46,933 nt of DNA from Clostridia bacterium (GCA_016287565.1 JAEFAM010000011.1:1-46933); one strand, 5' to 3'. Positions 39 to 16,946 are shown, counted from the first letter of the stretch. Program-made: numbers and translations. The notes: a model not told the origin generated them from the letters alone.

Positions 39-73
39 TTCTAATGAGTTTTCTAATGAGTTTCTAATTAGTT
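39..73. repeat. Tandem 12-bp repeat, three copies
   Basis: The unit TTCTAATGAGTT occurs twice back to back (39-50 and 51-62). A third copy with one mismatch, TTCTAATTAGTT, overlaps it at 62-73. The repeat lies downstream of the glycerate kinase stop codon. No gene or clear terminator hairpin is visible in bases 1-109. Confidence 0.7.
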
Positions 74-109
74 GCGTATGTTTGCCTTTACGAGCGATCC
101 CGGAGTTTC

Positions 110-1255
110 TTATTTCTTACTATTACTGTTCAAAAGCCTGAACACCTGGTATGCGGTTTCCGTTAAATTGTGCGCTGCATATTCCGGGTCAAGAGCCTCC
201 TCAAGAGAGCAGATATTCCGCAGGATCGGGAAAAATGCATCGATCCCATAATCGTTACATAAGCTGGCGTCATCCGAAACACATCCGGAAAAGGCAATGA
301 CGCGTTTGCCGTATTTCTTTGCAAGGGAAGCGATTCCAACAGGCGCTTTTCCCATAACGGTTTGTCCGTCAAGGCGTCCCTCGCCGGTGACCACGATATC
401 CGCTTCCCGGATATACTCTTCTAAATTGGCCTCATTAATAACGAGCTGCACGCCGGATTCCAGTGTTGCGTTGGTAAAAGTCATGAATGCGAAGCCTGAT
501 CCTCCGGCAGCCCCCGCTCCGGGTGCGTCAGGATCTGCATTTGGATTTATTTTTGATGCAATGGCGGCATAGTTGGACAACCACTTGTCCATTTTGGGGA
601 CGTCTTCCGGCGAGGCTCCTTTTTGGAGACTGAATACTGCACTGCAGCCGTTCTCGCCGCACAATGGATTGCTCACGTCGCAGGCAATGCGAAACTGACA
701 ATTATGCAGCGCGGGCAATGCGTTTTTATTTGATATACTGTGCAGCTTTTGCAAACCTGCAGTTCCAAACGGGATGGATCGTCCTTCCTTGTCTGTAAAA
801 TCAAGCCCCAGTGCCTGCAGCATTCCAGCACCGCCGTCATTGGTGGCGCTTCCGCCAATGCCTATCAGAAAGCGGCGGCAACCGCGGCGAATTGCCTCCA
901 GAATCAGTTCACCAACTCCATAAGTAGTGGTGACCATAGGGTCTCGCTTTTCTGGAGGCACCAAGGTAATTCCTGCGGCTGATGCCATCTCGATCACAGC
1001 CGTAACTTTATCCGGCAAAATGCCGAATCGGGCTGTCACCGGCGCTCCCAACGGCCCGGTAACCTGTGTGACAACAATTTTCCCGCCTGACCCGGAGCAA
1101 AGTGCCTCCACGGTTCCTTCGCCTCCGTCTGCCAGAGGCAGCACGTGTACTGTTGCGTCAGGGTCAACTCTCAATATGGCTTTTCGCACAGCTTCGCCGG
1201 CCTGTACGGAAGACAGACTCCCCTTGAAGGAGTCAATCGCAACTGCTACCTTCAT
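110..1255 (-). CDS. Glycerate kinase
   Basis: This 381-residue protein is a type 1 glycerate kinase, which phosphorylates D-glycerate with ATP to feed lower glycolysis. Full family length and the conserved blocks support the call: IDSFKGSLSS near residues 7-16, LADGGEGT at 41-48, GIGGSATNDGGAGM at 132-145, and VVTGEGRLDGQT near 290. The start codon overlaps the stop of the upstream regulator gene in an ATGA, so translation is probably coupled and both genes share one mRNA. The context suggests that glycerate is an end product of the pathway controlled by the neighbouring regulator, but the source of the glycerate is not visible here. Whether the product is 2- or 3-phosphoglycerate cannot be read from the sequence. 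Confidence 0.93.
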   Translation of the reverse strand: MKVAVAIDSFKGSLSSVQAGEAVRKAILRVDPDATVHVLPLADGGEGTVEALCSGSGGKIVVTQVTGPLGAPVTARFGILPDKVTAVIEMASAAGITLVPPEKRDPMVTTTYGVGELILEAIRRGCRRFLIGIGGSATNDGGAGMLQALGLDFTDKEGRSIPFGTAGLQKLHSISNKNALPALHNCQFRIACDVSNPLCGENGCSAVFSLQKGASPEDVPKMDKWLSNYAAIASKINPNADPDAPGAGAAGGSGFAFMTFTNATLESGVQLVINEANLEEYIREADIVVTGEGRLDGQTVMGKAPVGIASLAKKYGKRVIAFSGCVSDDASLCNDYGIDAFFPILRNICSLEEALDPEYAAHNLTETAYQVFRLLNSNSKK

Positions 1256-2361
1256 TTCAATTCACCGTTTCTTAAAAAAGCAGATACGGTCTGTTCGACA
1301 TCTTCTTTTTTGATCAGCTGATAGGGAACGGTAACATGCGGAATGCTTTCCTTGGGATTATTGATTTGCCGTAAAAGCAGTTCGGCAGCTTTGTAGCCAA
1401 TCGTATATTCATCCTGCAGGATGTGCGTATAAAATGAGCCGTTTAATAATTCAAGCGCGCTGTTGGTCCCGCCGTCAAAACACACGATCTCAAAATTGCT
1501 CAGATCCTTGCCGCACATTTTTAAAGCGAGTTGAATCAGGTTGGCACATTCGTAGTTTTCGGCAACGGCAGCAGTTATTTCGTTATAAGTGGTAAACAGA
1601 TCTGTTAACATGGCAATGTTGTCATACAACTGATTGGTGTCAGAGGAGTTTAATTTTCTGCAAACATACTTTTCGTGATAAGCACGGTCTTCGCTGTGGG
1701 CAAATGCGTACATAAAGCCTTTGATTCGTTCTTCCAGTGCGGTGTTGGAAATGAATGAACCGATAAAAGCGATTTTACTGTGTCCTTTAGCAAACAGATA
1801 GTTCACCAGATCTTTAGAAGCATTGAAATTATCTGTGCATACATAGGTATAAGGCAAACCGGGAAGATAACGGTCGACCATAACAAGAGGCATATTTTGA
1901 AGGCTTTCAGAAGTAAAGGCGGAATTATACAATTCACCGTTCATAGGCATTATGATGATGCCCGAAATACCCAGCGAAAGCATATATTGCAGCTCTTCCG
2001 CTTCTTCAGATTGTGTCTTATAAGTACTGGATATAATAGGAATAAGATTGTTTTCTTTGCAGAAGGACTGGATCCCCTTAGAAATCTTCCTGCCGAAAAA
2101 TTCTGAACTGGTAGGCATTACAAGACCGATTTTTTTCTTTTCAGTTATAATTTGAGAATCTTTTACAAAACTTCCTTTTCCGGCCGTTCTGGTTATTTTG
2201 TTTTCGTTTACGAGCATATCCAATGCGTGTCGAACGGTGGTTATGCTTACGTTATACTTTTCAGCATACTCCTGTTCCGTGGGCAGCAGATCGCCCGGGG
2301 TCAGAATCTTATTGTCAATATCTCTTGAGATAGCCATATATATTTCGTGATATTTTGCCAT
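1252..2361 (-). CDS. GntR/LacI-type transcriptional regulator (AraR-like architecture)
   Basis: The protein (369 residues from the chosen start) has an N-terminal GntR winged helix over about residues 5-68, with the helix-turn-helix in YNVSITTVRHALDML and the wing ending in GKGSFV. A LacI/periplasmic-binding-type effector domain follows (about 75-360). This is the layout of B. subtilis AraR, so it probably binds a sugar ligand and represses. The ATG at 2361 has an AGG 6 bases upstream and gives the normal GntR N-terminus. The longer reading frame from 2463 is rejected because that ATG lies between the -35 and -10 of a perfect promoter. Likely targets are its own promoter and the divergent gene at 2781, where an array of AAACATT/AATGTTT half-sites occurs. 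Confidence 0.9.
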   Translation of the reverse strand: MAKYHEIYMAISRDIDNKILTPGDLLPTEQEYAEKYNVSITTVRHALDMLVNENKITRTAGKGSFVKDSQIITEKKKIGLVMPTSSEFFGRKISKGIQSFCKENNLIPIISSTYKTQSEEAEELQYMLSLGISGIIIMPMNGELYNSAFTSESLQNMPLVMVDRYLPGLPYTYVCTDNFNASKDLVNYLFAKGHSKIAFIGSFISNTALEERIKGFMYAFAHSEDRAYHEKYVCRKLNSSDTNQLYDNIAMLTDLFTTYNEITAAVAENYECANLIQLALKMCGKDLSNFEIVCFDGGTNSALELLNGSFYTHILQDEYTIGYKAAELLLRQINNPKESIPHVTVPYQLIKKEDVEQTVSAFLRNGELK

Positions 2362-2418
2362 AACAACCTCGCATAATAAAAAAATGATTTTGCCCGATTC
2401 CTCGGTATTTGAGTGCTT

Positions 2419-2430
2419 AAACATTTGTTT
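2419..2430. promoter_or_regulatory. Possible autoregulatory operator
   Basis: AAACATTTGTTT is an inverted repeat, AAACA-TT-TGTTT. It resembles the half-sites of the array at 2724-2764. It lies just downstream of the predicted regulator transcription start near 2443, a position that suits autorepression. Confidence 0.5.
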
Positions 2431-2449
2431 TATCAGCATCTCGGTTGTA

Positions 2450-2478
2450 ATTATAAACATCATCCTCCTTTATGTCAA
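2450..2478 (-). promoter_or_regulatory. Sigma-A promoter of the regulator-glycerate kinase operon
   Basis: Read on the minus strand, TTGACA (2478-2473) and TATAAT (2455-2450) are separated by exactly 17 bases, a perfect consensus. Transcription would start near 2443, giving a leader of about 80 nt before the ATG at 2361. The AAAGGAGG between the two boxes therefore cannot be a used ribosome binding site. Confidence 0.85.
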
Positions 2479-2619
2479 CAAATTGGCATATTATCTTATT
2501 ATTACTAACTTATTATCCTATTATTCCTATTTTTTAACCAATTTGAGATTTTCCAGGAGCCAAAAGATGCTTCTACGAGGAGAGACAGACCGGGCAAGGA
2601 ATAAGAAATGCAAAAATAA

Positions 2620-2635
2620 CAATATTACAATGTTT
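2620..2635. promoter_or_regulatory. Upstream auxiliary operator-like site
   Basis: CAATATTACAATGTTT matches the downstream 16-bp sites with few differences, and 2621-2635 is identical to 2732-2746. The two copies are 111 bp apart, so looping between upstream and downstream sites is possible. Confidence 0.45.
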
Positions 2636-2689
2636 AAATTTTCGCCAAAAATCAACCAAATTTATGTAAAAAAAGACGGTTTTGGGCTG

Positions 2690-2718
2690 TTGACATCACT
2701 ACGGCGGTTTGATATAAT
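2690..2718 (+). promoter_or_regulatory. Sigma-A promoter of the surface-protein gene
   Basis: TTGACA at 2690-2695 and TATAAT at 2713-2718 are separated by exactly 17 bases. A TG one base before the -10 makes it an extended -10 as well. The predicted start, near 2725, coincides with the beginning of the operator array. Confidence 0.88.
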
Positions 2719-2723
2719 AGAAT

Positions 2724-2764
2724 AAACATTAAATATTACAATGTTTTGAAACATTGCAATGTTT
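2724..2764. promoter_or_regulatory. Operator array of inverted AAACATT/AATGTTT half-sites
   Basis: Half-sites alternate in orientation: AAACATT (2724-2730), AATGTTT (2740-2746), AAACATT (2749-2755) and AATGTTT (2758-2764). The last two form a perfect 16-bp palindrome, AAACATTGCAATGTTT (2749-2764). A degenerate 16-bp copy occupies 2731-2746, so two similar sites start 18 bp apart. The array covers the predicted transcription start and ends just before the ribosome binding site, which is typical for repression. The divergent GntR/LacI-type regulator is the obvious candidate ligand. Confidence 0.75.
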
Positions 2765-2780
2765 ATGAAGGAGGATAATT

Positions 2781-4265
2781 ATGAAACGCAGCAAACTACT
2801 TGTTACCTTGTTAGCCATATTTGTTATATGTCTAACATTTAGTATTGCCCTGATCGCTTTCGCTGATGAAAGTGAAATCGGCGATGTTTTTTCAAACGGA
2901 AGAGTTACTCAGGAAGTAACCGAAAACAACGATTTAAAGATAACGCTAAAAACCGATACAGATTATAGCAGCACAAGAGCATACTATAAACAACCTATAA
3001 CATTAGATATGGCGAATAATAAGTGGTTCGAGATGAACTTTACAGTCGATGAATTTAATGTTGACGGAGGTTTAAGAATCAGTTTCCTGGCTTCTGCCGA
3101 GGATTTCCCCATGGACTCTTATGGCGATGGCTTTGGAGTATATTTTTGGGATGAAACAGCCTGGGGATATCCTGAATTACAGGCGTTTAGATGCGATTTC
3201 TATAAGTATAGCAGGACTGCCGGTTCTTCGGGTTTAATAGATGCTAAAGCTGTCAGAAGTGATGCATATAAAATCACGGGACAGTCTTTCCATCTCAAGG
3301 TATGGGAATATGACGCGGATAATATAGCAATCCAGGTAGATAGAGATGACAACGGAACCAATATTCAGGCCATAGGTGCTTTCGCCAAATCAAACCTTCC
3401 GGAAGGATTTGACATTAAGAATTGTACCTTAATGATCACGCCTGATATTGATATTAACAGAGCACATTCTTACGAAAAAGATATCGTTTTAACAATAAAA
3501 GATATTAACGGCAAGAAACCAGTAGATCAGGCAGAGCAGCCCGCCACCAGTATCATCAACGAGAGCGAGTACGATGTTTCCTACGTTCTTGACAGCAGCA
3601 ACGCCAAGACCTGGACCAACGGCAACATCGGCAACGCCAGCGTTAAGTACTTTTTCAAAGCCGAAGATGACGGCGTTAAAGTCGCAATTCGCGCGTTGGG
3701 CGTCAGCGCAGGTGAACTGATGCAGCTGAACTTCAACCCCGGCAACAAGCTCGCGGGTTCCACCGGACAATTCCTGTCCTTTGTCACTGGCGATTCCTTC
3801 AAACTGCTGCAGCACAACCACAAGAACGGTGTGCTTGACGATGCAAACCCCAACGGTGCCGACATTTCCGACAAAGTTGACGGCCAGATCGCAGCGATCG
3901 ACGGCGGTTACGAGATCGTTGCTAAACTGCCAAAGGCGCTGTTCACCATCACCGACGTTGACGGTGCTGACTCGTTCGTTTACGGCCAGGATGACATTTA
4001 CTTCGGTATGTTCATTGTTACCGGCGGACATGGCTACACCAACCAGTCTACCGCTCCTGGCACTGACTGGACTGTTGACGGTCTTGGCCTTACTGAGTAT
4101 GTTTTTAAAGGACAGAAGGCTCCCGAGACCCAGCCTGCCACTCAGCCCGATACTCAGCCTGAGACTCAGCCTCAGACTGGGGATGCCACGGTAGCAATGT
4201 TTGCAGTCATTGTAGTTCTCACTCTTGGAGCAGTTATTGTTTTCGCGAAAAAGAGGTCTTTTTGA
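2781..4265 (+). CDS. Secreted surface protein: N-terminal beta module, CBM9-like module, sortase-like tail
   Basis: The 494-residue product has a signal peptide (cleavage near AFA-DES, residue 28). Residues 30-235 form a module shared with the next gene, and residues 255-448 form a CBM9/DOMON-like module closely related to the N-terminal domain of the product of 45245. A short repeat of TQP units follows. The C-terminus has QPQTGD (463-468), then a hydrophobic stretch and KKRSF, which resembles a cell-wall sorting signal with Q in place of L. An AAGGAGG lies 6-8 bases before the ATG. The N-terminal half is AT-rich and the C-terminal half is clearly GC-richer, with the change near 3510-3540. 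No catalytic residues are recognised, so glycan binding is inferred. It is probably controlled by the operator array directly upstream. Confidence 0.82.
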   Translation: MKRSKLLVTLLAIFVICLTFSIALIAFADESEIGDVFSNGRVTQEVTENNDLKITLKTDTDYSSTRAYYKQPITLDMANNKWFEMNFTVDEFNVDGGLRISFLASAEDFPMDSYGDGFGVYFWDETAWGYPELQAFRCDFYKYSRTAGSSGLIDAKAVRSDAYKITGQSFHLKVWEYDADNIAIQVDRDDNGTNIQAIGAFAKSNLPEGFDIKNCTLMITPDIDINRAHSYEKDIVLTIKDINGKKPVDQAEQPATSIINESEYDVSYVLDSSNAKTWTNGNIGNASVKYFFKAEDDGVKVAIRALGVSAGELMQLNFNPGNKLAGSTGQFLSFVTGDSFKLLQHNHKNGVLDDANPNGADISDKVDGQIAAIDGGYEIVAKLPKALFTITDVDGADSFVYGQDDIYFGMFIVTGGHGYTNQSTAPGTDWTVDGLGLTEYVFKGQKAPETQPATQPDTQPETQPQTGDATVAMFAVIVVLTLGAVIVFAKKRSF

Positions 4266-4290
4266 TCTGCAACAATAAACAACAATGAAA

Positions 4291-4313
4291 TAGGGCGCCC
4301 GCGTGGCGCCCTA
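4291..4313 (+). terminator. Hairpin terminator after the first surface-protein gene
   Basis: TAGGGCGCC (4291-4299) pairs perfectly with GGCGCCCTA (4305-4313) around a 5-base loop. The following bases are AT-rich (ATTAATTGAATT) but not a pure T-run, so termination may be partial. Confidence 0.65.
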
Positions 4314-4355
4314 ATTAATTGAATTGATCACAAACCATGATATACCCTAAAAGGG

Positions 4356-4384
4356 TTCCAACAAATCGGCTTTTTCGGTATAAT
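4356..4384 (+). promoter_or_regulatory. Promoter of the second surface-protein gene
   Basis: TATAAT at 4379-4384 is a perfect -10. The best -35 at 17-bp spacing is TTCCAA (4356-4361), a weak match. No copy of the AAACATT/AATGTTT operator is seen here. Confidence 0.55.
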
Positions 4385-4413
4385 ATAGGCTGAAAAGTAT
4401 GGAGGAGATTATT

Positions 4414-6093
4414 ATGAAACGCAGAAAACTTCTTGTTCCATTGTTAGCTATATTAGTTGCATGTCTAACATTATGTAACATCAGAATCGCTTTCGCTGAA
4501 GAGAGCGAATATACTTTTGATGAAGATTCACATTTCGTTCCCGGTAAGTGGGATGCTCAAAAGGGCAGGGTCAACACTACTGTAAATTCATCCGGCGAAG
4601 AAATGATATTTATGGTAAAAGACAGACAGCCACAGCAATCAAGAGCTTATTCTGAACCTATTGATATTACAATAGATACAAAAATCTCATTCCAAATTAT
4701 AGATATGGGAATTGGCGGCGGTTTTAGTTTAAGCTTTATGGCTACAGATGATGACTATCCATTAAGCGGATATGGCGATGGGTTAAGAATCCTTTTTAAA
4801 GATACTCAAACCGCATTGGTTGCTGATACAACTGTACATTCAAGAGCAGGTGATGCTGCAACTATTGGCAATGGCGAATACACAATTGTTGACGGCACCG
4901 ATTATCTTACACATACTTATTCTGTCAGAATATCGGACTATAATGATACGGCTTCAACAGTTAAAGTTTACCTCGATAAAGACGGAACAAATGTTGACTC
5001 TTTCACCGTTAACTTTGATGATCTGTCATCGTCATTTAACCCCGAAGCTTGTTTTCTGCTTTTAACTCCTGAAATCGACCAAAGTGTAGAATCTTCTTGG
5101 GAAAAGCCGTTAAAGGTTTTAATATCTGAATATTTGATCAACGGCGACTCGGGAGACACGGTTCCGACTGAAGCGCCCACGACGGTTCCGACTGAAGCAC
5201 CCACGATGACTCCTGAAGAGGTAATCACCGACATCAGCTACGGAGACAAACAAGTGCAGATCAAGCTGGTAGAGAATTTTAATGATTCCGTTGTCAGTCC
5301 GTGGGACTACGGCATATGCGAGATCATAGACGGTGATGTAATTCTGAGCGAGGAGTATGCTGCGAGCTGCGTTGACCGCTACGGCATTACCGCGCCGATG
5401 CTTAAAGCCGCGGGGAAACTTACCGGGGCGAAGTATGTTGTCCTCTCATTGACCAACAAGAGCGACGGAGAAGTCTGGTTCTGTTTCCAGCCGGATACGC
5501 CTGGCTACGAACATGCCTACATGGGCGGTGAGATGGATTTGGAACTGTATCTGGTCGAGCTTGACGGCACGGTCAGCGTAATCGATGAGCCCGCCGCAGA
5601 GACCTCGCAAAATAACGGCCGCTACGGCTACGGCATACCTGAGGGCTTCGACGGCTACCTGTTCATGCCGTCATCGATCTTCTGCGACCACGGAGATTGG
5701 TCCACACCGATCTTCACTAACGACGACCCGGTTTTCACGGCAGTAGGCTTCGATGTGAACGGCGATGAACCGTCTTTCTTCTTAGTGACTGTCCACGATA
5801 TGTATATATGCACGCAGGAGTTGCCGGAGATAGCTCCGAAATCGACAGAGGCCCCAACTGAGGCTCCCACCGAAGTACCTACAGAAGTTCCCACGGCGGA
5901 ACCTACCGAAGCACCTACGGACGCACCGGTCGTTACCGAGGAGCCGAAGACAACAGATGATTCCAAATCAGAGGAGCCTGCTCCCAAGAAAAACAACGGC
6001 TGGCTGATTCCCGTGATCATCGGCGGCGTGGTTGTTGTGGCGGCAATTATAGTTGCAGTCGCTGCTGCATCAAAGAAAAAGAAGAAAGCATAA
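4414..6093 (+). CDS. Membrane-anchored surface protein: N-terminal beta module plus GFxGY-type module
   Basis: The ATG at 4414 is preceded by GGAGGAG at good spacing. An in-frame ATG at 4399 is part of that ribosome binding site and is rejected. The 559-residue product has a signal peptide (IAFA-EES, near residue 27) and an N-terminal module homologous to that of the product of 2781 (both contain GYGDG or SYGDG). A PTEAPT linker follows, then a second module (about 275-475) that is nearly the same as the C-terminal module of the product of 16947, with PEGFDGYLFMP and VGFDVNGDEPS. Another PTE-rich linker leads to a membrane segment ending in KKKKKA. The first module is coded by AT-rich DNA and the second by GC-richer DNA, with the switch near 5150-5230. 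A carbohydrate-binding or scaffold role is inferred. Confidence 0.82.
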   Translation: MKRRKLLVPLLAILVACLTLCNIRIAFAEESEYTFDEDSHFVPGKWDAQKGRVNTTVNSSGEEMIFMVKDRQPQQSRAYSEPIDITIDTKISFQIIDMGIGGGFSLSFMATDDDYPLSGYGDGLRILFKDTQTALVADTTVHSRAGDAATIGNGEYTIVDGTDYLTHTYSVRISDYNDTASTVKVYLDKDGTNVDSFTVNFDDLSSSFNPEACFLLLTPEIDQSVESSWEKPLKVLISEYLINGDSGDTVPTEAPTTVPTEAPTMTPEEVITDISYGDKQVQIKLVENFNDSVVSPWDYGICEIIDGDVILSEEYAASCVDRYGITAPMLKAAGKLTGAKYVVLSLTNKSDGEVWFCFQPDTPGYEHAYMGGEMDLELYLVELDGTVSVIDEPAAETSQNNGRYGYGIPEGFDGYLFMPSSIFCDHGDWSTPIFTNDDPVFTAVGFDVNGDEPSFFLVTVHDMYICTQELPEIAPKSTEAPTEAPTEVPTEVPTAEPTEAPTDAPVVTEEPKTTDDSKSEEPAPKKNNGWLIPVIIGGVVVVAAIIVAVAAASKKKKKA

Positions 6094-6114
6094 ATAATAG
6101 GACAGAACCGCAAA

Positions 6115-6144
6115 GGTCGCGATCTTTAAAAACGGATCGCGGCC
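6115..6144 (+). terminator. Hairpin after the second surface-protein gene
   Basis: GGTCGCGATC (6115-6124) and GATCGCGGCC (6135-6144) form a 10-bp stem with one G-T pair and a 10-base loop. No T-run follows, so this may be an attenuator or a 3'-end stabiliser rather than a strong terminator. Confidence 0.45.
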
Positions 6145-6212
6145 ATTGCTCTATATCATGGCTTCATGTTGCATTTAGACACTCTGCTGTAATTGTGTAG
6201 GAGGGACCCGGT

Positions 6213-9200
6213 ATGAAGAGATTGGCGAAAGAAAGATGCGTGGAACGAAACAAAACAGGCAGGAGATTGTCTGCTCTGGCGGTGTGCGCGTTGATGATGC
6301 TCACTGCGTTCGGTTGCAAGACGGCTGACAACATCCCGGGGGACATAACCGCACCTCCTACAGAGAGCACGCAGCCTGTTACAGAGAAACTGGAAGTTAT
6401 GGATCTGTATGAAGACGGCTACAATAACAACATGATCGTCGGCTTTGACGAATACGGCCGCACAGTGCCTGCAGCGGCAGGCAAAAAAGATAAGCGTGAC
6501 GTTGGAATTTTCTATTTTCTTTGGTTGGGTCAGCCCCAATCCAGTGACATTTACGACGTCTCGAAGATAATCGCGGAGCAGGGCCAGGACATCGTATTCC
6601 ATGAAGAAGGCGGCAAAATCAGCCCTAACGGTCAGGCTCACTGGTGGGCGGAACCGCTCTACGGCTACTACAACAGCGTTGACAAATGGGTCATCCGGAA
6701 GCACTTGGAAATGCTTACCGAAGCCGGCGTGGACTTTCTGATCTTCGACACCACTAACTGTTTGCTGTACAGTGAAGTGGCTAAGAAAATAATGAAAATG
6801 AGCCAGGAACTCAGGGACGAAGGCTGGGATGCACCGCAGGTGTGTTTTTATACACATTCCCGTTCCATTGACACCATCAAGCAAATTTACAACACTTACT
6901 ACAAGAAAGGCAACTATCCGGATTCCTGGTATAGAATTGACGGCCGTCCTATGATCATCGGCTACACTTCGGCTGAAAAGGACATTCTCGAGGCGGAGAG
7001 CCGCGGCGAAACTACCTACAAGCCATCCGATCTGTCGCAGGAACTTCAGGACTTCTTCTACGTAAAAGAAGCGTGCTGGCCAAACGACGAACACAACGAC
7101 AACTCCTTCCCGTACACCGAATGGGTCTACCCGCAGCCGCTCAACGGCAATACGATGAACGTGTCCGTTGCCACCCATCCGATGGTGCCCTTCAGCTTTT
7201 CATTGACCCATGAGAACTGGTGCAACTGGGGGCGCGGCTACGACATCAACACCGGCGAAAACAAGCACGAAGACATCTACCGCGGCACGTTCTTCCAATC
7301 CGAATGGGAGACCGTGTTTGCCTCCGACCCGCAGCCCGAGATCCTGATGGTCACCGGCTGGAACGAATGGATCGCATATAAGCAGCCCTACGGCGGCGAG
7401 TACATGCTCTGCGACAACGTGGATATGGAATACTCCCGCGACATCGAACCCATGCAAGGTGGCTACGAAGACGCGTATTTCATCCAGATGATCACGAACA
7501 TCCGCAAGTACAAGTACAACGATTCCGACGGCGTGATTGCTGACAATGTATACAAAACTATTGACCTTAACGGCAGCGATGCTCAGTGGGATGAGGTGAA
7601 GGCAGTCTACCGCCATGTGGGCACGGTCAACGACAAACGCGATGCGTACGGCGCCGCAAAGACAGTACACTATTCTTTGCCTGCAGCGGACAACAACATT
7701 CTTTCGGTCAAACTGACCAACGACGCGGAGAACCTGTATTTCCGTATTGAATGTGCGGATCCGGTGAAAGTGACTGACAATGCCAATTGGATGAACCTGT
7801 TCATCGGCACCGGCACGCCGGCGCAAAAAGGCTGGGAGTCTTATGAATACGTGATCGGCCGGAGCCGCGACGCCGCGTCGGGCACTGCCGCCATTGAGCA
7901 GTTAAGCGCTGATTTCACCGGTAAACCCGCGGGCGATGCCACATACGCCGTGAACGACAAAACTGTGATCTACAGCGTGCCAATGGCCGCGATAGGCATT
8001 GATACCAACAGCGTAGCCTCGGCGCTCCGCATCTATTTCAAGGTGGCGGACGGCGTCGATGGCGCGGAAGAGATCATGAACTACTACGTTTCCGGGCGCT
8101 GCCTTCCCATGGGCCGCCTGAGCTACGAGTACAAATTCGTACTGCCTTCAGGGCAATCCGGCAGCAACACAGGAACAGATCCCGTATCAACTAATACCGC
8201 AGAAGTAATCAACACGGCAACGGCTACAGAAAGACCTACTCCGACACCAACGCCTTCGCCGAAACCCACAACGGTACCGGATCCTTCCACGGTCACGCTG
8301 ACGATCGAAGACTTTAACGCGATTTCAGATCCGATCAAAGAACTCCGTCCGTTAGATCTCAGCGGTTTCGGAATCACACATCCGGAGTTCTCTTTTGAGG
8401 AGGAGTACGCCCAGGAAGGGCTTGCGTTGGTCAACACACTTTCTGCGTCCACCTGGTGCCAGGCGTTTGAACTCACGGGCAAGCGGCTGAATGTATTTAA
8501 AGAAGCACAGCCGGAGTACTACCTGCGGATCTGGGTCGTTACACCTGATATCACCAGCGTAGGTCTTTCTTTCTGCCTCGGCACGGGCGGCGGAAGTAAG
8601 CGGAGCTACATCGACGCCTCAAAAGCGATCGTCACAGATGTGAGCGGCGAAGTCATAGAATGCGACACGGGCAACGACACATCAGACGCCGGAGACGATT
8701 CCTCTATCCGTATCCCTGATGGTTTTGAAGGATATGTAGCGTTGCCTCTCAGCGAACTGATACCATGGAACAATTACGAAGGCATCACTGATCTTGCCAA
8801 AGTAAATTACCTGAAGATCGACGCGCGGCCCTCGGTTGCTTGTGACGGTGATCGGTACATACTCGACGCGTTGTGCCTTTCTGACAGCCCCGTGGGAGAA
8901 CTCCGACCGGGCGGTTCCGGCTCGCACGGCGACCAGCCAGATCAGCAGACCTTTGCCACCAAAAATGAGGAGCTCGACTATATGTTTTCCGAATTGTTGA
9001 ACAAAGAAGCCACGTTCCAGTACTGTCCCGAATACGACCCCGCAGGCTATCCGAATGTGAAGGCGATCTGGCTCGACGGTGTCAGCTTCGGCGGCAAGGC
9101 TACTAAGGTATTCGCGTACATCGGTTTCCCCGAAGGCGCGAGCGCGGACAATAAAGTGCCCGCCATCGTGCTGCAGCATGGCGGCGGCGGATACGCGTAT

Positions 9201-10193
9201 CCCAATTGGGTAAAACTTTGGAACGACCGTGGCTACGCGGCCATTGCAGTGGGCAACACGGGCTACTATCCTGCCGCCCAAGGCATCACCGATTTTTACG
9301 GTGCCGCATCCTGGACCCGGAGCGTACCGAAAAACGTATTGTCCTCCGACCCGCGCATAATGCCCCCGGACAACGATGGAATGAATTCATCCACAGGTAG
9401 TGTAGACCGCATGTGGATGTACCACGCCGTAGCGCAGACGATCCTGGCAGACAGCCTGCTGCGGGCGGATCCGCGCGTTGACGCCGAAAATGTCGGATTG
9501 ACCGGCATCTCCTGGGGCGGCGTGATCACGTCTATAGCCATTGGCTACGACTCGCGCTTCGCGTTCGCGATTCCGGTTTACGGCAGCGGCTACCTGAACG
9601 AAGCGCACTCCTGGATGAAGAACAATTTCAATTCTGCCGGCACGCGCGAACTCTGGGAGCCTTCGCTGAAACTGAAAGATGTCAAAACAAAGGTGCTCTG
9701 GTTGTGCTGGGCCAACGATAACTGCTTCTCAATCAACTCCAACAGCAAGTCCTGTCTGGACGTGCAGGGCAGTGTGCTTTCTGTGATCCAGAACTGGAGC
9801 CACGGGCATATAGAAGGCTGGAGCCGGCCGGAGATAAACCGTTTCGCTGACTGGGCCGTCAAGGGCGGCGAGCCCCTTGCAACGTTCAAAACGCTGCCGG
9901 GCGAAGGCCGCGACATTTCGTTCCAGATAACACTGCCTGCCGATGCCGCGGAAGTAAATGCGCGGGTGTGCTACATTGACGCCCCGCTAAGCTACTCGCC
10001 GAACGGCCGCCTGCATCTTAGCGGTCAGGACACCATCGATCAGGAGTGGCACTATGCCAAGTGCGAGATTAATGGCGACACCGTCTCCGTGCACCTGCCC
10101 GATGACGCGGTCAATTACTATATCGAACTGTCCGTACGCTGCAGAGCAACGAGCTATATCACGGCATCACCGCTGATCAGTCTGGTCGATTAA
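6213..10193 (+). CDS. Multimodular lipoprotein: GH99/WbsX-like barrel, CBM9-like, GFxGY-like module, carbohydrate esterase
   Basis: This 1326-residue lipoprotein (lipobox ending at Cys35) starts after AGGAGGG. Residues about 70-440 resemble GH99-like/WbsX barrels, with EPLYGYYN, YRIDGRP and GWNEW (382-386, Glu385 a candidate catalytic residue). Residues 445-650 are CBM9-like. A Thr/Pro linker follows, then a module (690-905) with IPDGFEGYV that distantly resembles the GFxGY modules of the products of 4414 and 16947. The C-terminus (930-1326) is an alpha/beta hydrolase of the acetyl-xylan-esterase type: GISWGG with Ser1100, a probable acid in WANDN (Asp1169), and a histidine at 1197 or 1199. 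The barrel and CBM9 parts are shared with the product of 41051, which lacks the esterase. The protein probably removes acyl groups and cleaves an alpha-linked glycan at the cell surface; the substrate is unknown. Confidence 0.8.
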   Translation: MKRLAKERCVERNKTGRRLSALAVCALMMLTAFGCKTADNIPGDITAPPTESTQPVTEKLEVMDLYEDGYNNNMIVGFDEYGRTVPAAAGKKDKRDVGIFYFLWLGQPQSSDIYDVSKIIAEQGQDIVFHEEGGKISPNGQAHWWAEPLYGYYNSVDKWVIRKHLEMLTEAGVDFLIFDTTNCLLYSEVAKKIMKMSQELRDEGWDAPQVCFYTHSRSIDTIKQIYNTYYKKGNYPDSWYRIDGRPMIIGYTSAEKDILEAESRGETTYKPSDLSQELQDFFYVKEACWPNDEHNDNSFPYTEWVYPQPLNGNTMNVSVATHPMVPFSFSLTHENWCNWGRGYDINTGENKHEDIYRGTFFQSEWETVFASDPQPEILMVTGWNEWIAYKQPYGGEYMLCDNVDMEYSRDIEPMQGGYEDAYFIQMITNIRKYKYNDSDGVIADNVYKTIDLNGSDAQWDEVKAVYRHVGTVNDKRDAYGAAKTVHYSLPAADNNILSVKLTNDAENLYFRIECADPVKVTDNANWMNLFIGTGTPAQKGWESYEYVIGRSRDAASGTAAIEQLSADFTGKPAGDATYAVNDKTVIYSVPMAAIGIDTNSVASALRIYFKVADGVDGAEEIMNYYVSGRCLPMGRLSYEYKFVLPSGQSGSNTGTDPVSTNTAEVINTATATERPTPTPTPSPKPTTVPDPSTVTLTIEDFNAISDPIKELRPLDLSGFGITHPEFSFEEEYAQEGLALVNTLSASTWCQAFELTGKRLNVFKEAQPEYYLRIWVVTPDITSVGLSFCLGTGGGSKRSYIDASKAIVTDVSGEVIECDTGNDTSDAGDDSSIRIPDGFEGYVALPLSELIPWNNYEGITDLAKVNYLKIDARPSVACDGDRYILDALCLSDSPVGELRPGGSGSHGDQPDQQTFATKNEELDYMFSELLNKEATFQYCPEYDPAGYPNVKAIWLDGVSFGGKATKVFAYIGFPEGASADNKVPAIVLQHGGGGYAYPNWVKLWNDRGYAAIAVGNTGYYPAAQGITDFYGAASWTRSVPKNVLSSDPRIMPPDNDGMNSSTGSVDRMWMYHAVAQTILADSLLRADPRVDAENVGLTGISWGGVITSIAIGYDSRFAFAIPVYGSGYLNEAHSWMKNNFNSAGTRELWEPSLKLKDVKTKVLWLCWANDNCFSINSNSKSCLDVQGSVLSVIQNWSHGHIEGWSRPEINRFADWAVKGGEPLATFKTLPGEGRDISFQITLPADAAEVNARVCYIDAPLSYSPNGRLHLSGQDTIDQEWHYAKCEINGDTVSVHLPDDAVNYYIELSVRCRATSYITASPLISLVD

Positions 10194-10252
10194 AACAGAA
10201 ATGTTCATAAAAAAGAAGGTTAAAACCTCCGCCTCTGCATTGGAGAATAGCG

Positions 10253-12814
10253 ATGAATAAAATCACTGGAATATACTTGAATTACAGCCCTTTGAAAAAG
10301 ACCGAGCGATACCGTATTACGGAAAGCCTTCCGGTGTTTTCATGGGCTGTAAAAGCTGATTACAAGTCCGGTTTTCAAAAGGCGTTCGTATTGAAAATCA
10401 AAAACGGCAAGGAAACTGTTTTTGATTCCGGCGTGATCGAATCCGCTAAACAGGAATATAAATTAAAGAACGTCGATCTGCCGTGCGATTGCAAACTGTA
10501 TGTAGAAATATCTGTTTTAGATAACCGGGACGAATGGGGCACTTCAAGAGAAGAATATTTTTATGTTGCCGGCACCGATTTCAAGTCTTTGCGCTGGATC
10601 GCCCCTGAGGCTGCCGAAAAAGAAAAGGCGATATATTTCAGAAAGAAGTTTACGGTCAATAAAAAAATAAGCCTCGCGGTGCTGTATGCCTGCGGCTTAG
10701 GTTATCATAAGCTGTACATCAATGGCGTGGCGGTCAGCAATACAGTTCTTGACCCATTATTTTCCGATTACTCCAAAGACTGCTATTACGTTATGGAACC
10801 GGAGGTTGCCGATAAGATCACCGAAGGGGAAAACTGTATAGGGATCGTGATCGGCGAGGGCTGGAGAAGAAACGGCATAGTCTTTCCAGCGAAAAGCTCC
10901 GGACCGGATCAAATAAAGAAATTTGCGGGAGTTCCGCAGCTTTCGGCGCTGCTCAAGATCTATTACGAAGACGGAACCGTTGACAGGATAGAGACGGATC
11001 CTTCCTGGAAATGGAGCTACGGCGCGATCGTTAAGAACAATATTTTTAACGGCGAAACGTACGACGCCAACTATGCTTTGAATGATTGGAACCGCATCGA
11101 ATGTGATGAAAATACTTTTGAAAACGTAAGTATTGTTCAAAGTCCCGGCGGCGTTCCCCGGGTCATGACAGCCGAACCGGTCATTGAGCAGGAAATATAT
11201 AGACCGGTCACTGCAAATCAGGTGGATGAGAATACGTATGTTGTTGACTTCGGTCAAAATATAGCAGGGGTCACCAGGATCAAGCTTCCTGAAAAGCTGA
11301 AAAAAGGGCAACGGATATCAATTACCCATTCCGAATTTATTAACGAAGACGGATTGCTGTATATGGCTACATATCGTAATGCGGCCAGCACAGATGTTTA
11401 TACTGCATCCGGGGATGAAAGAGACTTAAAAGTCTGGCAGCCGCTCTTTACTTATCACGGTTTCAGATATGCCCAGATCACCGGGTTACCAATGCTTGAA
11501 AAGGATGATATTGTCGCAGTTAGTGTGTATTCGGATATTCAGTCAGAAAGCAAGTTTTCCTGCGGAAACGGTCTTGTCAACAGTATTCATAAACTGGTTA
11601 TTCAAACGGAAAAATCCAATATTCACGGATTGTTTACCGATTGTCCGCAAAGAGATGAGCGCATGGGCTGGATGAACGACGCCACAGTGCGCTTTGAGGA
11701 AACGCCCTATAATTTTGAAATCGGCAGACTGATGCCTAAAATCATTCAAGACGTTATGGATACCCAGGATGAAAACGGCGCTATCACCTGTACGGCGCCT
11801 TATTTGTGGGGAAACAGACCGGCCGATCCGGTATGCGCTTCACCGATCGTAGCCGGACTTCAGTGCTATCTCCATACGGGCAATCTTGAAATATTGCAGC
11901 GTGCGTATGATATGTATGCCGGATGGGTGAAATGTCTCGGAGATCATTCTGAAAACTATCTTGTTAATTATTCTTATTACGGCGACTGGGCAGGCCCCGG
12001 ATATGCCTGTCTCGGCGGTGATGAAGGTGCCGAGTCAATAGTAACGCCCGGTCTGTTTATGTCCAGCGGGTATTACTATTTTGACGCAATGACAATGTCG
12101 AGATTCGCAAAGTTGCTCGGCAAAACAGAGGACGAAATAAAGTACCGCGAGCTCGCGGAACGAATAAAAGCAGCCATTTTGGACAAATGGTGGGACGATA
12201 ATACGGGTAAAATGTGCACCGGTTCTCAGGGGAGTCAAAGCTTTGCGTTATGGCTTGGTATTATTCCGGAGAACAAGAGAAAACTGGCGGCTGCACAGCT
12301 GAGAGATGATCTCATTAAGTTTGATTACCGTATAACGACCGGCAATCTTAACACCCGTTATATGATGGACATGCTCGCCGAATATGGATATATTGACGAT
12401 GCATGGGAGCTTATTACAAGAGAGGAATATCCTTCTTTTGGATATATGCTCCAGCTGGAAGCAACGACTGTCTGGGAAAGGTTTGAATTCAAAAAGACGT
12501 CGTCGATGAATTCCCATAATCATCCGATGTACGGCGCTATAGGGTATTGGTTCTATGCATATATCTGCGGGATCAAACCCACTTCGGCGGCGTATGATAC
12601 GGTTGATATCAAGCCGTATTTCCCCAAAAAACTATTAAGCGCAAACGCTTCATTGCAGACAATAAAAGGGGAGTTGTCAGTCAGATGGGTAAAACGTTTC
12701 GGTAAAACGTATCTGTACGTAAATATTCCTTTCGGTGTCAATGCCAATTTGTATTTTGGGGATATTTGTGAGAAGATAGGCAGCGGTTTCCACGTTTTTG
12801 AAAAGGAATGCTGA
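10253..12814 (+). CDS. GH78 family alpha-L-rhamnosidase
   Basis: The 853-residue protein has the GH78 layout: N-terminal beta-sandwich domains, a central rhamnosidase domain with DFGQNIAG, then an alpha/alpha barrel beginning near the acid-rich motif DCPQRDERMGW (463-473). The conserved Asp476 follows, and TTVWERF lies further on in the barrel. It removes terminal alpha-L-rhamnose from glycans or glycosides. There is no signal peptide, so it acts in the cytoplasm on imported oligosaccharides. GGAG lies 8 bases before the ATG. The alpha-mannosidase gene starts 16 bases after the stop, indicating an operon. Family assignment is secure; the exact linkage is not. Confidence 0.9.
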   Translation: MNKITGIYLNYSPLKKTERYRITESLPVFSWAVKADYKSGFQKAFVLKIKNGKETVFDSGVIESAKQEYKLKNVDLPCDCKLYVEISVLDNRDEWGTSREEYFYVAGTDFKSLRWIAPEAAEKEKAIYFRKKFTVNKKISLAVLYACGLGYHKLYINGVAVSNTVLDPLFSDYSKDCYYVMEPEVADKITEGENCIGIVIGEGWRRNGIVFPAKSSGPDQIKKFAGVPQLSALLKIYYEDGTVDRIETDPSWKWSYGAIVKNNIFNGETYDANYALNDWNRIECDENTFENVSIVQSPGGVPRVMTAEPVIEQEIYRPVTANQVDENTYVVDFGQNIAGVTRIKLPEKLKKGQRISITHSEFINEDGLLYMATYRNAASTDVYTASGDERDLKVWQPLFTYHGFRYAQITGLPMLEKDDIVAVSVYSDIQSESKFSCGNGLVNSIHKLVIQTEKSNIHGLFTDCPQRDERMGWMNDATVRFEETPYNFEIGRLMPKIIQDVMDTQDENGAITCTAPYLWGNRPADPVCASPIVAGLQCYLHTGNLEILQRAYDMYAGWVKCLGDHSENYLVNYSYYGDWAGPGYACLGGDEGAESIVTPGLFMSSGYYYFDAMTMSRFAKLLGKTEDEIKYRELAERIKAAILDKWWDDNTGKMCTGSQGSQSFALWLGIIPENKRKLAAAQLRDDLIKFDYRITTGNLNTRYMMDMLAEYGYIDDAWELITREEYPSFGYMLQLEATTVWERFEFKKTSSMNSHNHPMYGAIGYWFYAYICGIKPTSAAYDTVDIKPYFPKKLLSANASLQTIKGELSVRWVKRFGKTYLYVNIPFGVNANLYFGDICEKIGSGFHVFEKEC

Positions 12815-12830
12815 GCGAGGAGTTTATAAT

Positions 12831-15311
12831 ATGAACAGACTGCATTTAATATGTAATGCGCATATTGACCCGGTGTGGCAATGGAAATGGGACGAAGGAT
12901 TGGCAACGGTTCTTTCTACGTTCAGAGTTGCAGCGGAGTTCTGCGAGGAATTTGACAATTTCGTTTTTAATCACAACGAAGCCATGCTGTATAAGTGGAT
13001 AGAAGAGTACGATCCGCCCTTGTTCAAACGCATTCAAAAGCTCGTTCAGGCAGGCAAATGGCAAATAATGGGTGGATGGTATCTGCAGCCGGATTGTAAT
13101 ATGCCCTGCGGTGAATCCATAGTTCGTCAAATTATATACGGACAGCAATTTTTCAGAGAAAAATTCGGAGTCAGCCCCAACGCGGCAGTCAACGTTGACT
13201 CTTTCGGCCATTCCAGAGGCCTTGTACAGATCTTGGCCAAATGCGGGTATGATGCATATTTATATTTAAGGCCGACGCCGGATACGGGGATCCCTGAAGG
13301 AATTGACGGGCAGAATTTCCTTTGGGTCGGTTATGACGGCAGCAAAATACTAACGCATCATTTTGACTGGGGATACAATACGCTGCTCGGCACTGCGGGC
13401 AAAGCCGTTGAACAGTATGTCAACTCACATACCGAGGATAAAGCGTATCTTATGTGCTGGGGTGTCGGGAACCACGGAGGCGGACCTTCCAGAAGAGACA
13501 TTATTGCGATCAACGAACTGATAGAGCATGTTTCCGATAAGAGCACGGTCATGCATTCTACGCCGGAACAATACGTCAGCGAGGTTGAAAAGTCTGATCT
13601 TCCTTTATGGTATGGAGATTTAAATCCCGTAAACGTCGGAAGTATTACGTCAATGCATTCGATCAAGGCGCTTCATAGAAAACTTGAAGGCAGGCTGGCG
13701 GTTTCGGAAAAGCTTTCAGCGCTTTGCGAAAAAAACGGTTTGATGGCTTATCCGGGCGAAAAGATCCATGAAGCGTATGAAGATCTTATGTTCTCGGAAT
13801 TTCACGATTCTTTGCCGGGGACAATGATCCGCAGCGCGGAAAAAGATACGGTCCAAAAACTGGATCACGGGTTGGAGATATGCGAAAAAATAATAACTAA
13901 GGCATTTTTCGCGCTCAGTGCAGACCAGCCTCGGGCAACCGGCACGGATATCCCGATCATCATTGTCAATCCGCATCCTTATGAGATCACGGATGATTTC
14001 GAGTGTGAATATATGCTTCAAAATCAAAACTGGGACAATAACTTTACGGTTGCCACAGTGTATGACGGGGACAAACCGCTTCCTTCGCAGATGGAAAAAG
14101 AGGGCAGCAATATGCCCCTTGACTGGCGCAAGAAGATCTCGTTCCACGGCACGCTGAAACCGATGTGCGCAAATCGTTTTGATTGCAAACTGCGAATCGT
14201 TGACGACGATCCCCGTACCGTTAAAGCCGTATCGCAGTTTGAACCGTTTGTTTTTGAAAATGATCATATGAAGGTCGTCCTGGATACTTCTACGGGCAGT
14301 ATCTCCGAATACGTTGTAAACGGGCAGAATTATGCTGCTCCCGGCCTGGGCGAACTGCTTGTTTATGAAGATTGTCCGAATCCGTGGCGGCTTAGAGAAA
14401 CGCTTTATCACGGCAAACTTTTAGGAAAGTTTAAACTGCTGAACAGAAGAGAAGCTGCCGTTTTTGCGGGGACAAATGAAGATGAGATCAGTCCGGTAAA
14501 TGTCATCGATTCGGGCGAAGTACGCACTATGGTCGAAGTTTTATTGGGCTACAATACTTCTAGAGCGCGGTTGGTGTACGTTTTTTCAAATCATTCAAAA
14601 GAGTTTGATATTAAACTTACACTATATTGGAACGAGAAAGACACCCTTTTAAAACTGAATGTTCCAAATTCTTTTGACGAGCCTCAGTACGTAGGCGAAG
14701 ATATGTTCGGGGTGAAACCGTTAAAAAAAGATTATGAGCAGGTTGCCCACAAATGGGTCATGGCTTGTGAAAACGACCGGGCATTGGCGGTGGTCAACCA
14801 AACCTGTTACGGCATGGATACGGATAAGGGCGGAGTCCGGTTAAGCCTTTTACGTTCCCCAGCATATTCCTGCCACGATATCGGCGACAGAATACTGATG
14901 GAAGATCCCTGTTTCCACCACCGGATGGATCAAAATGAGAGCGAGTTCAGATTCAGGGTGCTGGCAGGAAACAAAGAAAGTGTTTTGATCGAAACCGATA
15001 AGGCTGCGCAATACATCAACGAGACGCCCGTGGCAATTTCTTATTTCCCCGGGGGTGAAGGGAAGAACGATCTCAAAAGCTTCGAAATCAGGAACGTCCG
15101 TCTCGATGCGTTTAAGAAAGCAGAGGACGGAAACGGTTACGTTATGCATTTATTTAATACACTTGATAAGCCGGTTCGGGCTGAAATCAAGCTGGATGCT
15201 TTTAACGTCAAAACAGAGCTCTATTTCGGCAATTATGAATTGAAAGCGTATCGGGTTAATGATAATATGCTGCAAGAGATCACGTTGATCGATGAAATAA
15301 AACAGGTCTGA
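12831..15311 (+). CDS. GH38 family alpha-mannosidase
   Basis: The product (826 residues) begins at the ATG at 12831, which has GAGGAG 8 bases upstream and gives the canonical GH38 N-terminus. The upstream in-frame ATG at 12798 lies inside the rhamnosidase gene and is rejected. The zinc-binding HID is at residues 11-13 (AHIDPVW), and the nucleophile is Asp123 in NVDSFGHS. The C-terminal beta domains of the family are present. It trims alpha-mannose residues from oligosaccharides and, lacking a signal peptide, is cytoplasmic. It is co-transcribed with the GH78 gene upstream and the ROK-SIS gene 21 bases downstream. The combination of mannosidase and rhamnosidase suggests a mixed glycan substrate. 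Confidence 0.92.
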   Translation: MNRLHLICNAHIDPVWQWKWDEGLATVLSTFRVAAEFCEEFDNFVFNHNEAMLYKWIEEYDPPLFKRIQKLVQAGKWQIMGGWYLQPDCNMPCGESIVRQIIYGQQFFREKFGVSPNAAVNVDSFGHSRGLVQILAKCGYDAYLYLRPTPDTGIPEGIDGQNFLWVGYDGSKILTHHFDWGYNTLLGTAGKAVEQYVNSHTEDKAYLMCWGVGNHGGGPSRRDIIAINELIEHVSDKSTVMHSTPEQYVSEVEKSDLPLWYGDLNPVNVGSITSMHSIKALHRKLEGRLAVSEKLSALCEKNGLMAYPGEKIHEAYEDLMFSEFHDSLPGTMIRSAEKDTVQKLDHGLEICEKIITKAFFALSADQPRATGTDIPIIIVNPHPYEITDDFECEYMLQNQNWDNNFTVATVYDGDKPLPSQMEKEGSNMPLDWRKKISFHGTLKPMCANRFDCKLRIVDDDPRTVKAVSQFEPFVFENDHMKVVLDTSTGSISEYVVNGQNYAAPGLGELLVYEDCPNPWRLRETLYHGKLLGKFKLLNRREAAVFAGTNEDEISPVNVIDSGEVRTMVEVLLGYNTSRARLVYVFSNHSKEFDIKLTLYWNEKDTLLKLNVPNSFDEPQYVGEDMFGVKPLKKDYEQVAHKWVMACENDRALAVVNQTCYGMDTDKGGVRLSLLRSPAYSCHDIGDRILMEDPCFHHRMDQNESEFRFRVLAGNKESVLIETDKAAQYINETPVAISYFPGGEGKNDLKSFEIRNVRLDAFKKAEDGNGYVMHLFNTLDKPVRAEIKLDAFNVKTELYFGNYELKAYRVNDNMLQEITLIDEIKQV

Positions 15312-15332
15312 AAGACGGAATAGGTTTGTGAT

Positions 15333-16895
15333 ATGTTATTAGGTTTCGATATCGGCGGCACAAAATGTGCCGTAGTAACAGCAGAAAAGACCCCGGGCGG
15401 TATTATTATTACCGCCAAGGAAAAAGTACTGACCGATCTAAACGTCAGCCCGGGGGAGATGATAGACCGTCTGATAGCTCTGGCTGATAAGGTCTGCGGC
15501 GGAAAGCAGCCTGAATCTATCGGCATTTCCTGCGGAGGACCGCTGGACTCGAGCAGGGGATTGATCTTAGGACCCCCGAATCTGCCCGGATGGGACTGTG
15601 TGCCGATCATCGAACAGGTCAAAAACCATTTCGGTGTGCCGGTACATCTGCAAAATGATGCGAATGCCTGTGCCCTGGCTGAATGGAAATTCGGCGCCGG
15701 CAAGGGCACAAAAAATATGATCTTTTTGACCTTCGGTACAGGGCTTGGCGCCGGCCTTATTTTGGACGGCCACCTGTATTCCGGCACCAACGACAACGCC
15801 GGTGAAGTCGGGCATATCCGCATTGAAAAAGACGGCCCCGTGGGGTACGGTAAATGCGGCTCGTTTGAGGGCTTTTGCAGCGGCGGCGGTCTGGCGCAAC
15901 TGGGACAACAATATCTGGAACAGGCGCTTGAAAAAGGCCTTGCCCCAATGTATGCAGGGGGTGAAGTCAATGCAAAAACCATTTCGATTGCCGCCGACAA
16001 CGGCGACCCGACAGCGATCGAAGTGTATAAAACCTGTGGCGAAAAACTGGGCCAGGGATTGTCCGTGCTGATCGATATTTTGAACCCCGAATGTATCGTC
16101 ATCGGCAGCATTTTCACCCGCTCGCAAAATCTGCTGTGGCAATATACTAAAGAAGTTATCGACCGTGAAGCGCTGCCGATCTCCGCAGGAGTCTGCCGGG
16201 TAGTGCCGGCAAAGCTCGGAGAATCCCTCGGCGATCATGCCGCGATAGGTGTTGCTTTGCTGGAGGAACAAAACACGGATGATCTGTTTACGCATTATCC
16301 GGTGCTAAACAGCTGCCGGGCCGAGATCGAAACAGCGACAAAAACCATTATTGCCTCCTTTAAAAACGAAGGCAAGTTGCTGCTGTGCGGAAACGGCGGC
16401 AGTTGTGCAGACTGCGAGCATATTGTCGGCGAACTGATGAAAGGCTTTTTGTCGAAAAGAGCTTTGAGCGAAGAGCAAAAGGCGCAGATGAAGAAAAACA
16501 ACCCTGAGCTTACAGCTGAGGTTCTGGCAAGGCTGCAAAGGGCGGTCCCGGCGATCTCTCTGCCGAGTTTCGCGGGACTGAATACCGCTTTTTGCAACGA
16601 CGTTGACTCCGAACTGGTATATGCGCAGTGTTTGATGGGACTCGGGCGAAATAGCGACGTGCTGATGTGCATCAGTACGTCGGGCAATTCGAAAAACTGT
16701 GTTGCCGCAGCTCAGGTGGCAAAGGGACTGGGGCTTACCGTCATTGCCCTTACCGGACAGTCGGGCGGTAAGCTAAAGGGAATAGCTGATATCTGTATTT
16801 GCGCACCCGAAGCTGAAACATATAAGGTGCAGGAGTTGCATTTGCCTATCTACCATTATATTTGCATGGAAATCGAGAGAGCGTTTTTTGGATGA
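15333..16895 (+). CDS. ROK sugar kinase fused to a SIS-domain isomerase
   Basis: The 520-residue protein joins two enzymes. Residues 1-310 are a ROK kinase, with ATP motif LGFDIGGTK and catalytic NDANACALAE. The usual ROK zinc motif CxCGxxGCxE is altered to YGKCGSFEGFC, so zinc binding is doubtful. Residues about 325-520 form a SIS domain of the GmhA/DiaA type, with GNGGSCADCEH, STSGNS and ALTGQSGGKL. The gene directly follows the alpha-mannosidase gene with only a weak ribosome binding site, which suggests coupled expression. The likely role is phosphorylation and then aldose-ketose isomerisation (or the reverse) of a sugar released by GH38 or GH78. The substrate is unknown, and mannose or a heptose-like sugar is only a guess. 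Confidence 0.85.
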   Translation: MLLGFDIGGTKCAVVTAEKTPGGIIITAKEKVLTDLNVSPGEMIDRLIALADKVCGGKQPESIGISCGGPLDSSRGLILGPPNLPGWDCVPIIEQVKNHFGVPVHLQNDANACALAEWKFGAGKGTKNMIFLTFGTGLGAGLILDGHLYSGTNDNAGEVGHIRIEKDGPVGYGKCGSFEGFCSGGGLAQLGQQYLEQALEKGLAPMYAGGEVNAKTISIAADNGDPTAIEVYKTCGEKLGQGLSVLIDILNPECIVIGSIFTRSQNLLWQYTKEVIDREALPISAGVCRVVPAKLGESLGDHAAIGVALLEEQNTDDLFTHYPVLNSCRAEIETATKTIIASFKNEGKLLLCGNGGSCADCEHIVGELMKGFLSKRALSEEQKAQMKKNNPELTAEVLARLQRAVPAISLPSFAGLNTAFCNDVDSELVYAQCLMGLGRNSDVLMCISTSGNSKNCVAAAQVAKGLGLTVIALTGQSGGKLKGIADICICAPEAETYKVQELHLPIYHYICMEIERAFFG

Positions 16896-16946
16896 CCGGG
16901 AAGCGAAGGACGAAACGAAAACGGGGTATGGCGCGGAGATGTTGAA

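Follow-up and report, generated by a model that had tools for sequence, protein, structure and literature searches.

The window analysed here, a 46,933-nucleotide stretch of DNA from a Clostridia bacterium (GCA_016287565.1 JAEFAM010000011.1:1-46933), carries on its plus strand a complete open reading frame (ORF) at 6213-10193 that starts with ATG and encodes a lipoprotein of 1326 amino acids, in which a barrel of the GH99 superfamily is joined to a CE7-like esterase. We consider it probable that the gene arose recently, as a genuine in-frame fusion between two secreted lipoprotein enzymes of one bacterial lineage, and that it has the roles proposed below. The gene follows a good ribosome-binding site (GGAGGG, 6200-6205, +) and opens with a lipoprotein signal peptide of the barrel type (6213-6317, +), and this leader is identical at 165 of 224 positions to that of the barrel gene in the nearest congener, G002 (RGIG8055). 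The lipobox, LTAFG|C35 (LTAFGC, residues 30-35), ends in Cys35, as expected for a bacterial lipoprotein and in agreement with the surface anchoring proposed in an earlier sequence-only reading of the locus.

The mature protein begins with a (beta/alpha)8 barrel (approximately residues 61-437; 6393-7523, +), which is placed by an AlphaFold2 model, structure search and profile matches and contains the motif GWNEW at residues 382-386. A CBM9-like beta-sandwich (approximately residues 441-645; 7533-8147, +) follows, and beyond the fusion point lies a Thr/Pro-rich linker (TGTDPVSTNTAEVINTATAT...PTPTPTP; 8169-8282, +) that belongs to the esterase lipoprotein, since the same sequence follows the lipobox in the G002 esterase. 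The C-terminal half then consists of a beta-rich GFxGY module (approximately residues 695-891; 8295-8885, +), modelled with moderate confidence, found also in secreted esterase relatives and reading GFEGYVALP with GFxGY at 837-841; a CE7-like alpha/beta-hydrolase (approximately residues 914-1221; 8952-9875, +), identified by structure search and a conserved triad, with GISWGG at residues 1098-1103; and a C-terminal beta-sandwich (approximately residues 1231-1326; 9903-10190, +), seen in the secondary structure of the model. This is the union of GWNEW barrel, CBM9-like module, GFxGY module and Ser1100 esterase that the sequence-only reading had described, and its motifs and residue numbering were correct. 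A Pfam scan of the whole protein returned no family above cut-off and NCBIfam returned none; neither scan assigned the barrel, CBM9-like sandwich, GFxGY module or C-terminal sandwich directly to a family.

The two halves of this protein are encoded separately in its relatives. Barrel and esterase are on separate contigs in six of six congeners examined, and a search for the same architecture elsewhere, which the sequence-only reading had suggested, yielded no second fused copy in 58 relatives or 391 genomes of the class, with the best few matches per genome scored. Long barrel ORFs from distant genomes (L140-L149) were considered as independent esterase fusions and rejected, as they carry Cu_amine_oxidN1, CBM6 or unassigned parts and no esterase; similarly, one ORF of G294, 1185 residues long and including an esterase-like domain, does not match the barrel and encodes a distinct protein. 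The joined architecture is a recent fusion in one lineage, not a conserved design. In blastn comparisons, G002 and the window are colinear on either side of an insert of ∼2 kb, with matching blocks at 66-2876 (95% identity), 4398-6163 (96%) and 8142-18955 (93%). At the place of the window barrel, G002 has the leader and signal peptide of the esterase only, such that the esterase stands alone with its own lipoprotein signal, and the G002 orthologue of the barrel (84% nucleotide identity) is found on another contig. A second G002 esterase copy, 86-87% identical, is apparently split across two contig ends (L049 and L050; G002:C29 and C116).

The fusion point falls on the Leu644-Pro645 codons (8142-8147, +), based on codon alignment and on blastn breakpoints at 8146 and 8142 against the two G002 loci. 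Across the join the window reads LP-SGQSGSN-TGTDPV and the G002 esterase reads LP-AALFGCS-TGIDPV, while the G002 barrel ends in KFKLPDTAD-stop; thus, Leu-Pro is common to both parents, the old barrel C-terminus and the old esterase signal peptide. The segment after the crossover, SGQSGSN (8148-8168, +), is in exact register with AALFGCS, with Ser in place of the lipobox Cys, and from this alignment we read the linker as a probable relic of the esterase signal peptide in which Leu, Phe and the lipobox Cys have become Gln, Ser and Ser. In the 11 codons before DPV (residues 645-655), 20 of 33 nucleotides are identical in register, a value reached in 0 of 100,000 codon shuffles; besides the relic, the best in-frame match within the gene reaches no more than 17 of 33.

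Since the gene comes from a single metagenome-assembled genome (MAG), in which the gene pair is repeated and contigs often end near such genes, a barrel gene from elsewhere might have been placed into the esterase locus of this contig during assembly. We regard such an artefact as very improbable. Among the reported matches of the two junction regions to the rest of the genome, identical runs do not exceed 16 bases and the others are short and diverged (e.g. C114, 86% over 36 bases), so that no repeat there hints at misassembly; both flanks match a single G002 locus; the frame is open throughout; both halves are conserved, with a ratio of nonsynonymous to synonymous divergence (dN/dS) from their G002 counterparts of 0.12 and 0.13; and a chimera or misassembly would not create a mutated signal relic in exact register.

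The congener esterases also indicate the direction of the change. They retain a hydrophobic signal end with a lipobox (LMLPAALFGC in G002, IMLPAGLFGC), and therefore the fusion is the derived state. In G002, L047 and L048, which are unrelated barrel and esterase genes, have leaders (ribosome site and signal start) that are 70% identical (111/159), pointing to a possible leader exchange. This resemblance, as though one leader had replaced the other, is what might be expected if the fusion were ancestral and the barrel had later dropped out of the esterase gene in the relatives, but that order of events is scarcely credible, as the G002 esterase keeps the same hydrophobic signal end as other congeners, and all congeners as well as G000:C2 are unfused, with barrels elsewhere.

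Several observations weigh against a recent functional fusion. The match to the relic is moderate, as 4 of the 93,800 33-mers of the window (both strands) reach 20/33. The low dN/dS of both halves mostly reflects the time before the fusion. The fusion is known from one MAG contig. Both halves occur as separate secreted proteins in relatives, and joining is therefore not needed for function. Finally, the barrel is without the E-x-x-E dyad of GH99, so its catalysis is not secure.

The surroundings of the gene carry a possible further sign of exchange. The stretch 66-18955 is 93-96% identical to G002, while identity falls to 75-84% for genes farther along the window, and synonymous divergence from G002 is 0.20 for the esterase half and 0.68 for the barrel. 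This pattern suggests that 66-18955 was recently transferred between the two species and that the resident genome supplied the barrel that was joined to it.

Fold matches to GH99 and GH71, profile matches to GH99 and a profile comparison with WbsX place the barrel in the GH99/GH71/WbsX superfamily. A model of barrel and sandwich (residues 46-646, with 36 relatives in the alignment) was obtained with a predicted local distance difference test score (pLDDT) of 91.9. GH99 is the best structural match of this model (VIA Z 19.0, root-mean-square deviation (rmsd) 4.0 with 266 residues aligned to 4acz; Foldseek E 1e-7) and GH71 the second-best fold (VIA Z 14-16, e.g. 15.6), while unrelated barrels score below 12. 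The sequence profile of the barrel family matches the solved GH99 structures 4acy, 4ad1 and 5lyr (E 5e-6), and the hidden Markov model (HMM) alignment places WNEWIA of the family opposite FNEWHEG of GH99. WbsX (PF14307) shows a distant similarity in the N-terminal half in the profile-profile comparison (hhalign Prob 96.6, E 7e-10) and also has WNEW, followed within that loop by E-P; hmmscan, run up to E 1, gave no WbsX match for the fused protein, and a family search of the genome found C140, a true WbsX protein encoded elsewhere, as the only one matching Pfam WbsX.

The family differs from each of these relatives at the active site. With the GH99 enzymes BtGH99, BxGH99 and human MANEA it shares the fold, WNEW/FNEW with the first catalytic Glu, and the P-x-x-G-Y-Y/S-S-x-D region; unlike them, it has no second Glu of E-x-x-E, has extra residues after NEW, is dissimilar in the HLEPY motif region, has invariant FDxTN and SRDxE motifs of its own, and carries the CBM9-like sandwich. 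WbsX keeps WNEW-x-E (E341 is invariant in the WbsX alignment), unlike the window family. GH71 alpha-1,3-glucanases are similar in fold, but their D-x-x-E dyad is not found here, where the corresponding residues are E385 and A388.

Conservation was examined in 49 barrel-family sequences, with distant members drawn from further taxonomic families in the class. Glu385 of GWNEW, which the HMM alignment pairs with the first catalytic Glu of GH99, is kept in all 49, while Ala388 (7365-7376, + for both), at the place of the second, is replaced by M, V, F or S in other members and is never acidic; thus the GH99 dyad E-W-x-E is represented by its first Glu only. Invariant in the set are D174, D179, N182, R341, E385, D401, S408, R409, D410, E412, D420 and R476. 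Among these are acids that could have replaced the lost second Glu. Asp179, in FDTTN (codon 6747-6749, +), lies where a core strand ends (model strand 130-135) and is a candidate second catalytic carboxylate; Asp410 and Glu412 are candidates in the SRDIEP loop (Ser408-Arg409-Asp410-Ile-Glu412-Pro; 7434-7451, +), which is the same loop that bears Glu385.

It is highly unlikely that the barrel is an ordinary GH99 endo-alpha-1,2-mannanase. The nearest fold is GH99, and Pfam GH99 matches 12 of 37 family members at E ≤0.1, but the second catalytic Glu is absent, the HMM alignment shows no conservation of the HLEPY motif region, where the window protein has FYTHSRS, and the window barrel scores 26.6 bits on Pfam Glyco_hydro_99, under the curated cut-off of 33. 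Because of the missing Glu and this score, the barrel is not to be filed as GH99. Accordingly, the GH99/WbsX-like barrel of the sequence-only reading holds at the level of the superfamily, based on fold and profiles, but not as a direct assignment to GH99 or WbsX.

A less remote alternative, although one we think unlikely, is that the barrel is a binding or repurposed domain that holds the glycan for the esterase and is not an active glycoside hydrolase. GH99 enzymes from different domains of life retain both Glu residues of EW[H/G]E (PMC11025385), whereas position 388 is acidic in none of the 49 members; and GH71, which keeps its D-x-x-E dyad, loses activity 200-15,000-fold when either acid is replaced (PMC12394665). 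However, WNE is intact in the barrel family, and the invariance of seven acids (D174, D179, E385, D401, D410, E412 and D420) together with R341 would be unusual in a dead enzyme. The barrel is best read as an unclassified family of the GH99/GH71 superfamily with a changed active site. That it is a new glycoside hydrolase family, in which Asp179, Asp410 or Glu412 replaces the second dyad Glu and the mechanism or linkage specificity differs, and that it has expanded in this genome, which belongs to a rumen clostridial lineage whose lipoprotein genes swap leaders and fuse by crossovers at signal-peptide codons, is a fuller proposal to which we give slightly less than an even chance.

The barrel family is large and highly conserved and has no Pfam or NCBIfam model of its own. 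There are ∼27 near-complete copies in this 2.65-Mb genome, which also encodes a barrel and an esterase in separate genes, at 74% identity to the corresponding halves of the fused gene. One copy within the window, at 41051-43654 (−), encodes 867 amino acids comprising an N-terminal extension, barrel, CBM9-like part and C-terminal membrane anchor, and aligns by BLASTP over residues 46-645 with 29% identity (E 9e-66); it has no esterase, as had been noted from the sequence. The family is common in this order and in a few other families of the class, but at a strict threshold a single further genome among 398 sampled from the phylum carried it. The relatives that have names are MAGs, from the rumen or otherwise clostridial. 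The source is an uncultured bacterium, probably of the rumen.

The remaining modules were assigned mostly from predicted structure. The sandwich behind the barrel matches the CBM9 structure 1i82 (Foldseek E 4e-4, target template modelling score 0.40), which upholds the CBM9-like module of the sequence-only reading, although chain C of 2ivf scores alike and there is no Pfam match. The model of the C-terminal half (18 relatives in the alignment, pLDDT 80.8) consists of the beta-rich GFxGY module, an alpha/beta hydrolase and the C-terminal sandwich. A relation between the GFxGY module and the surface proteins encoded at 4399 and 16947 was expected but was not found by BLAST or phmmer. On the predicted model the hydrolase has the CE7 fold (1l7a, VIA Z 26.0, rmsd 3.1, 266 residues aligned), and it shares with CE7 acetyl xylan esterases and cephalosporin C deacetylases a Ser-Asp-His triad in matching order. 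The putative triad, Ser1100 (9510-9512, +), Asp1169 (9717-9719) and His1197/His1199 (9801-9809), is conserved at the sequence level in close esterase relatives and not in degenerate ones. By its fold, the predicted Ser1100-type esterase can be specified as a CE7-type hydrolase. The serine motif of CE7 is GxSQG, but the window esterase reads GISWGG; it also has the additional GFxGY module and C-terminal sandwich, and scores 11.7 bits on Pfam AXE1, below the cut-off of 21. One esterase relative, L092 (G026:C19), reads GIGWGG, has no HGH, has lost the catalytic Ser and His, and is likely a pseudoenzyme.

Together, these features suggest how the gene may have arisen and acted. A crossover at the Leu-Pro codons would have placed the barrel gene, its leader and lipobox included, before the mature esterase, trimming the esterase signal peptide to a short relic; the lipobox Cys of this relic would then have been replaced by Ser, so that a soluble linker remained. 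The exported product would be anchored by Cys35, with both activities kept on the cell surface. The barrel and CBM9-like sandwich most likely cleave alpha-glycosidic bonds within a glycan, or at least bind it, with Glu385 as one catalytic carboxylate and Asp179, Asp410 or Glu412 standing in for the missing second Glu. The GFxGY part would serve as a carbohydrate-module-like domain, and the CE7-like serine esterase (Ser1100-Asp1169-His1197/1199) most likely removes acetyl or other acyl groups. Because both activities would be held on the cell surface, an acylated glycan, probably one containing mannose and rhamnose, could be deacylated and cut together; a single acylated polysaccharide is a plausible substrate of both halves.

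Fusions of carbohydrate esterases to other catalytic domains are known, and the joined domains can help one another (PMC7110780). Such multidomain enzymes, for example the CE6-CE1 type, likewise place complementary carbohydrate-acting catalytic domains on one secreted chain, but they belong to other families, and the part of that paper considered here describes no freshly made fusion with a leftover signal peptide. What is new in the present gene is the combination of the two halves, together with its recent origin and the scar still visible at the join; the barrel family, unclassified and strongly expanded, is new as well. The gene thus offers a readable case of the origin of a bifunctional carbohydrate enzyme, in which relatives of the parents are still separate, the crossover codons are visible and the internal lipobox was apparently silenced later. 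The unfused parents in the sister species are ready controls for whether joining glycosidase and esterase improves glycan breakdown. A characterised barrel would assign function to many rumen and gut clostridial genes, because the family is large, conserved and without its own model, and would test how the unusual chemistry of GH99 can be rebuilt on another acid.

Downstream of the fused gene, in an operon-like arrangement, are genes with Pfam matches to GH78 (10253-12814, +; 59 bases after the fused gene), GH38 (12798-15311, +; overlapping the GH78 gene) and ROK+SIS (15333-16895, +; 21 bases after GH38). This set (10253-16895) is on the same strand and is colinear in G002, and the GH78 rhamnosidase, GH38 alpha-mannosidase and ROK+SIS protein would point to a glycan of mannose, rhamnose and amino sugars. 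A PADLOC scan of two neighbouring ORFs added no family assignment.

Surface proteins flank this cluster. Those encoded at 4399-6093 and 16947-18956 both end in a similar membrane segment and lysine-rich tail, and each matches part of the G002 counterpart of the other (∼81% over ∼640 bases), as if a C-terminal cassette had been copied between them. A 494-residue LPXTG-like surface protein with weak EF0750/LPXTG matches (2781-4265) is missing from the colinear G002 locus. Farther along the window, a BNR/sialidase-like repeat protein (28911-30185) is encoded among GH127, GH5-like and GH2 genes, which make up another glycan-degrading cluster.

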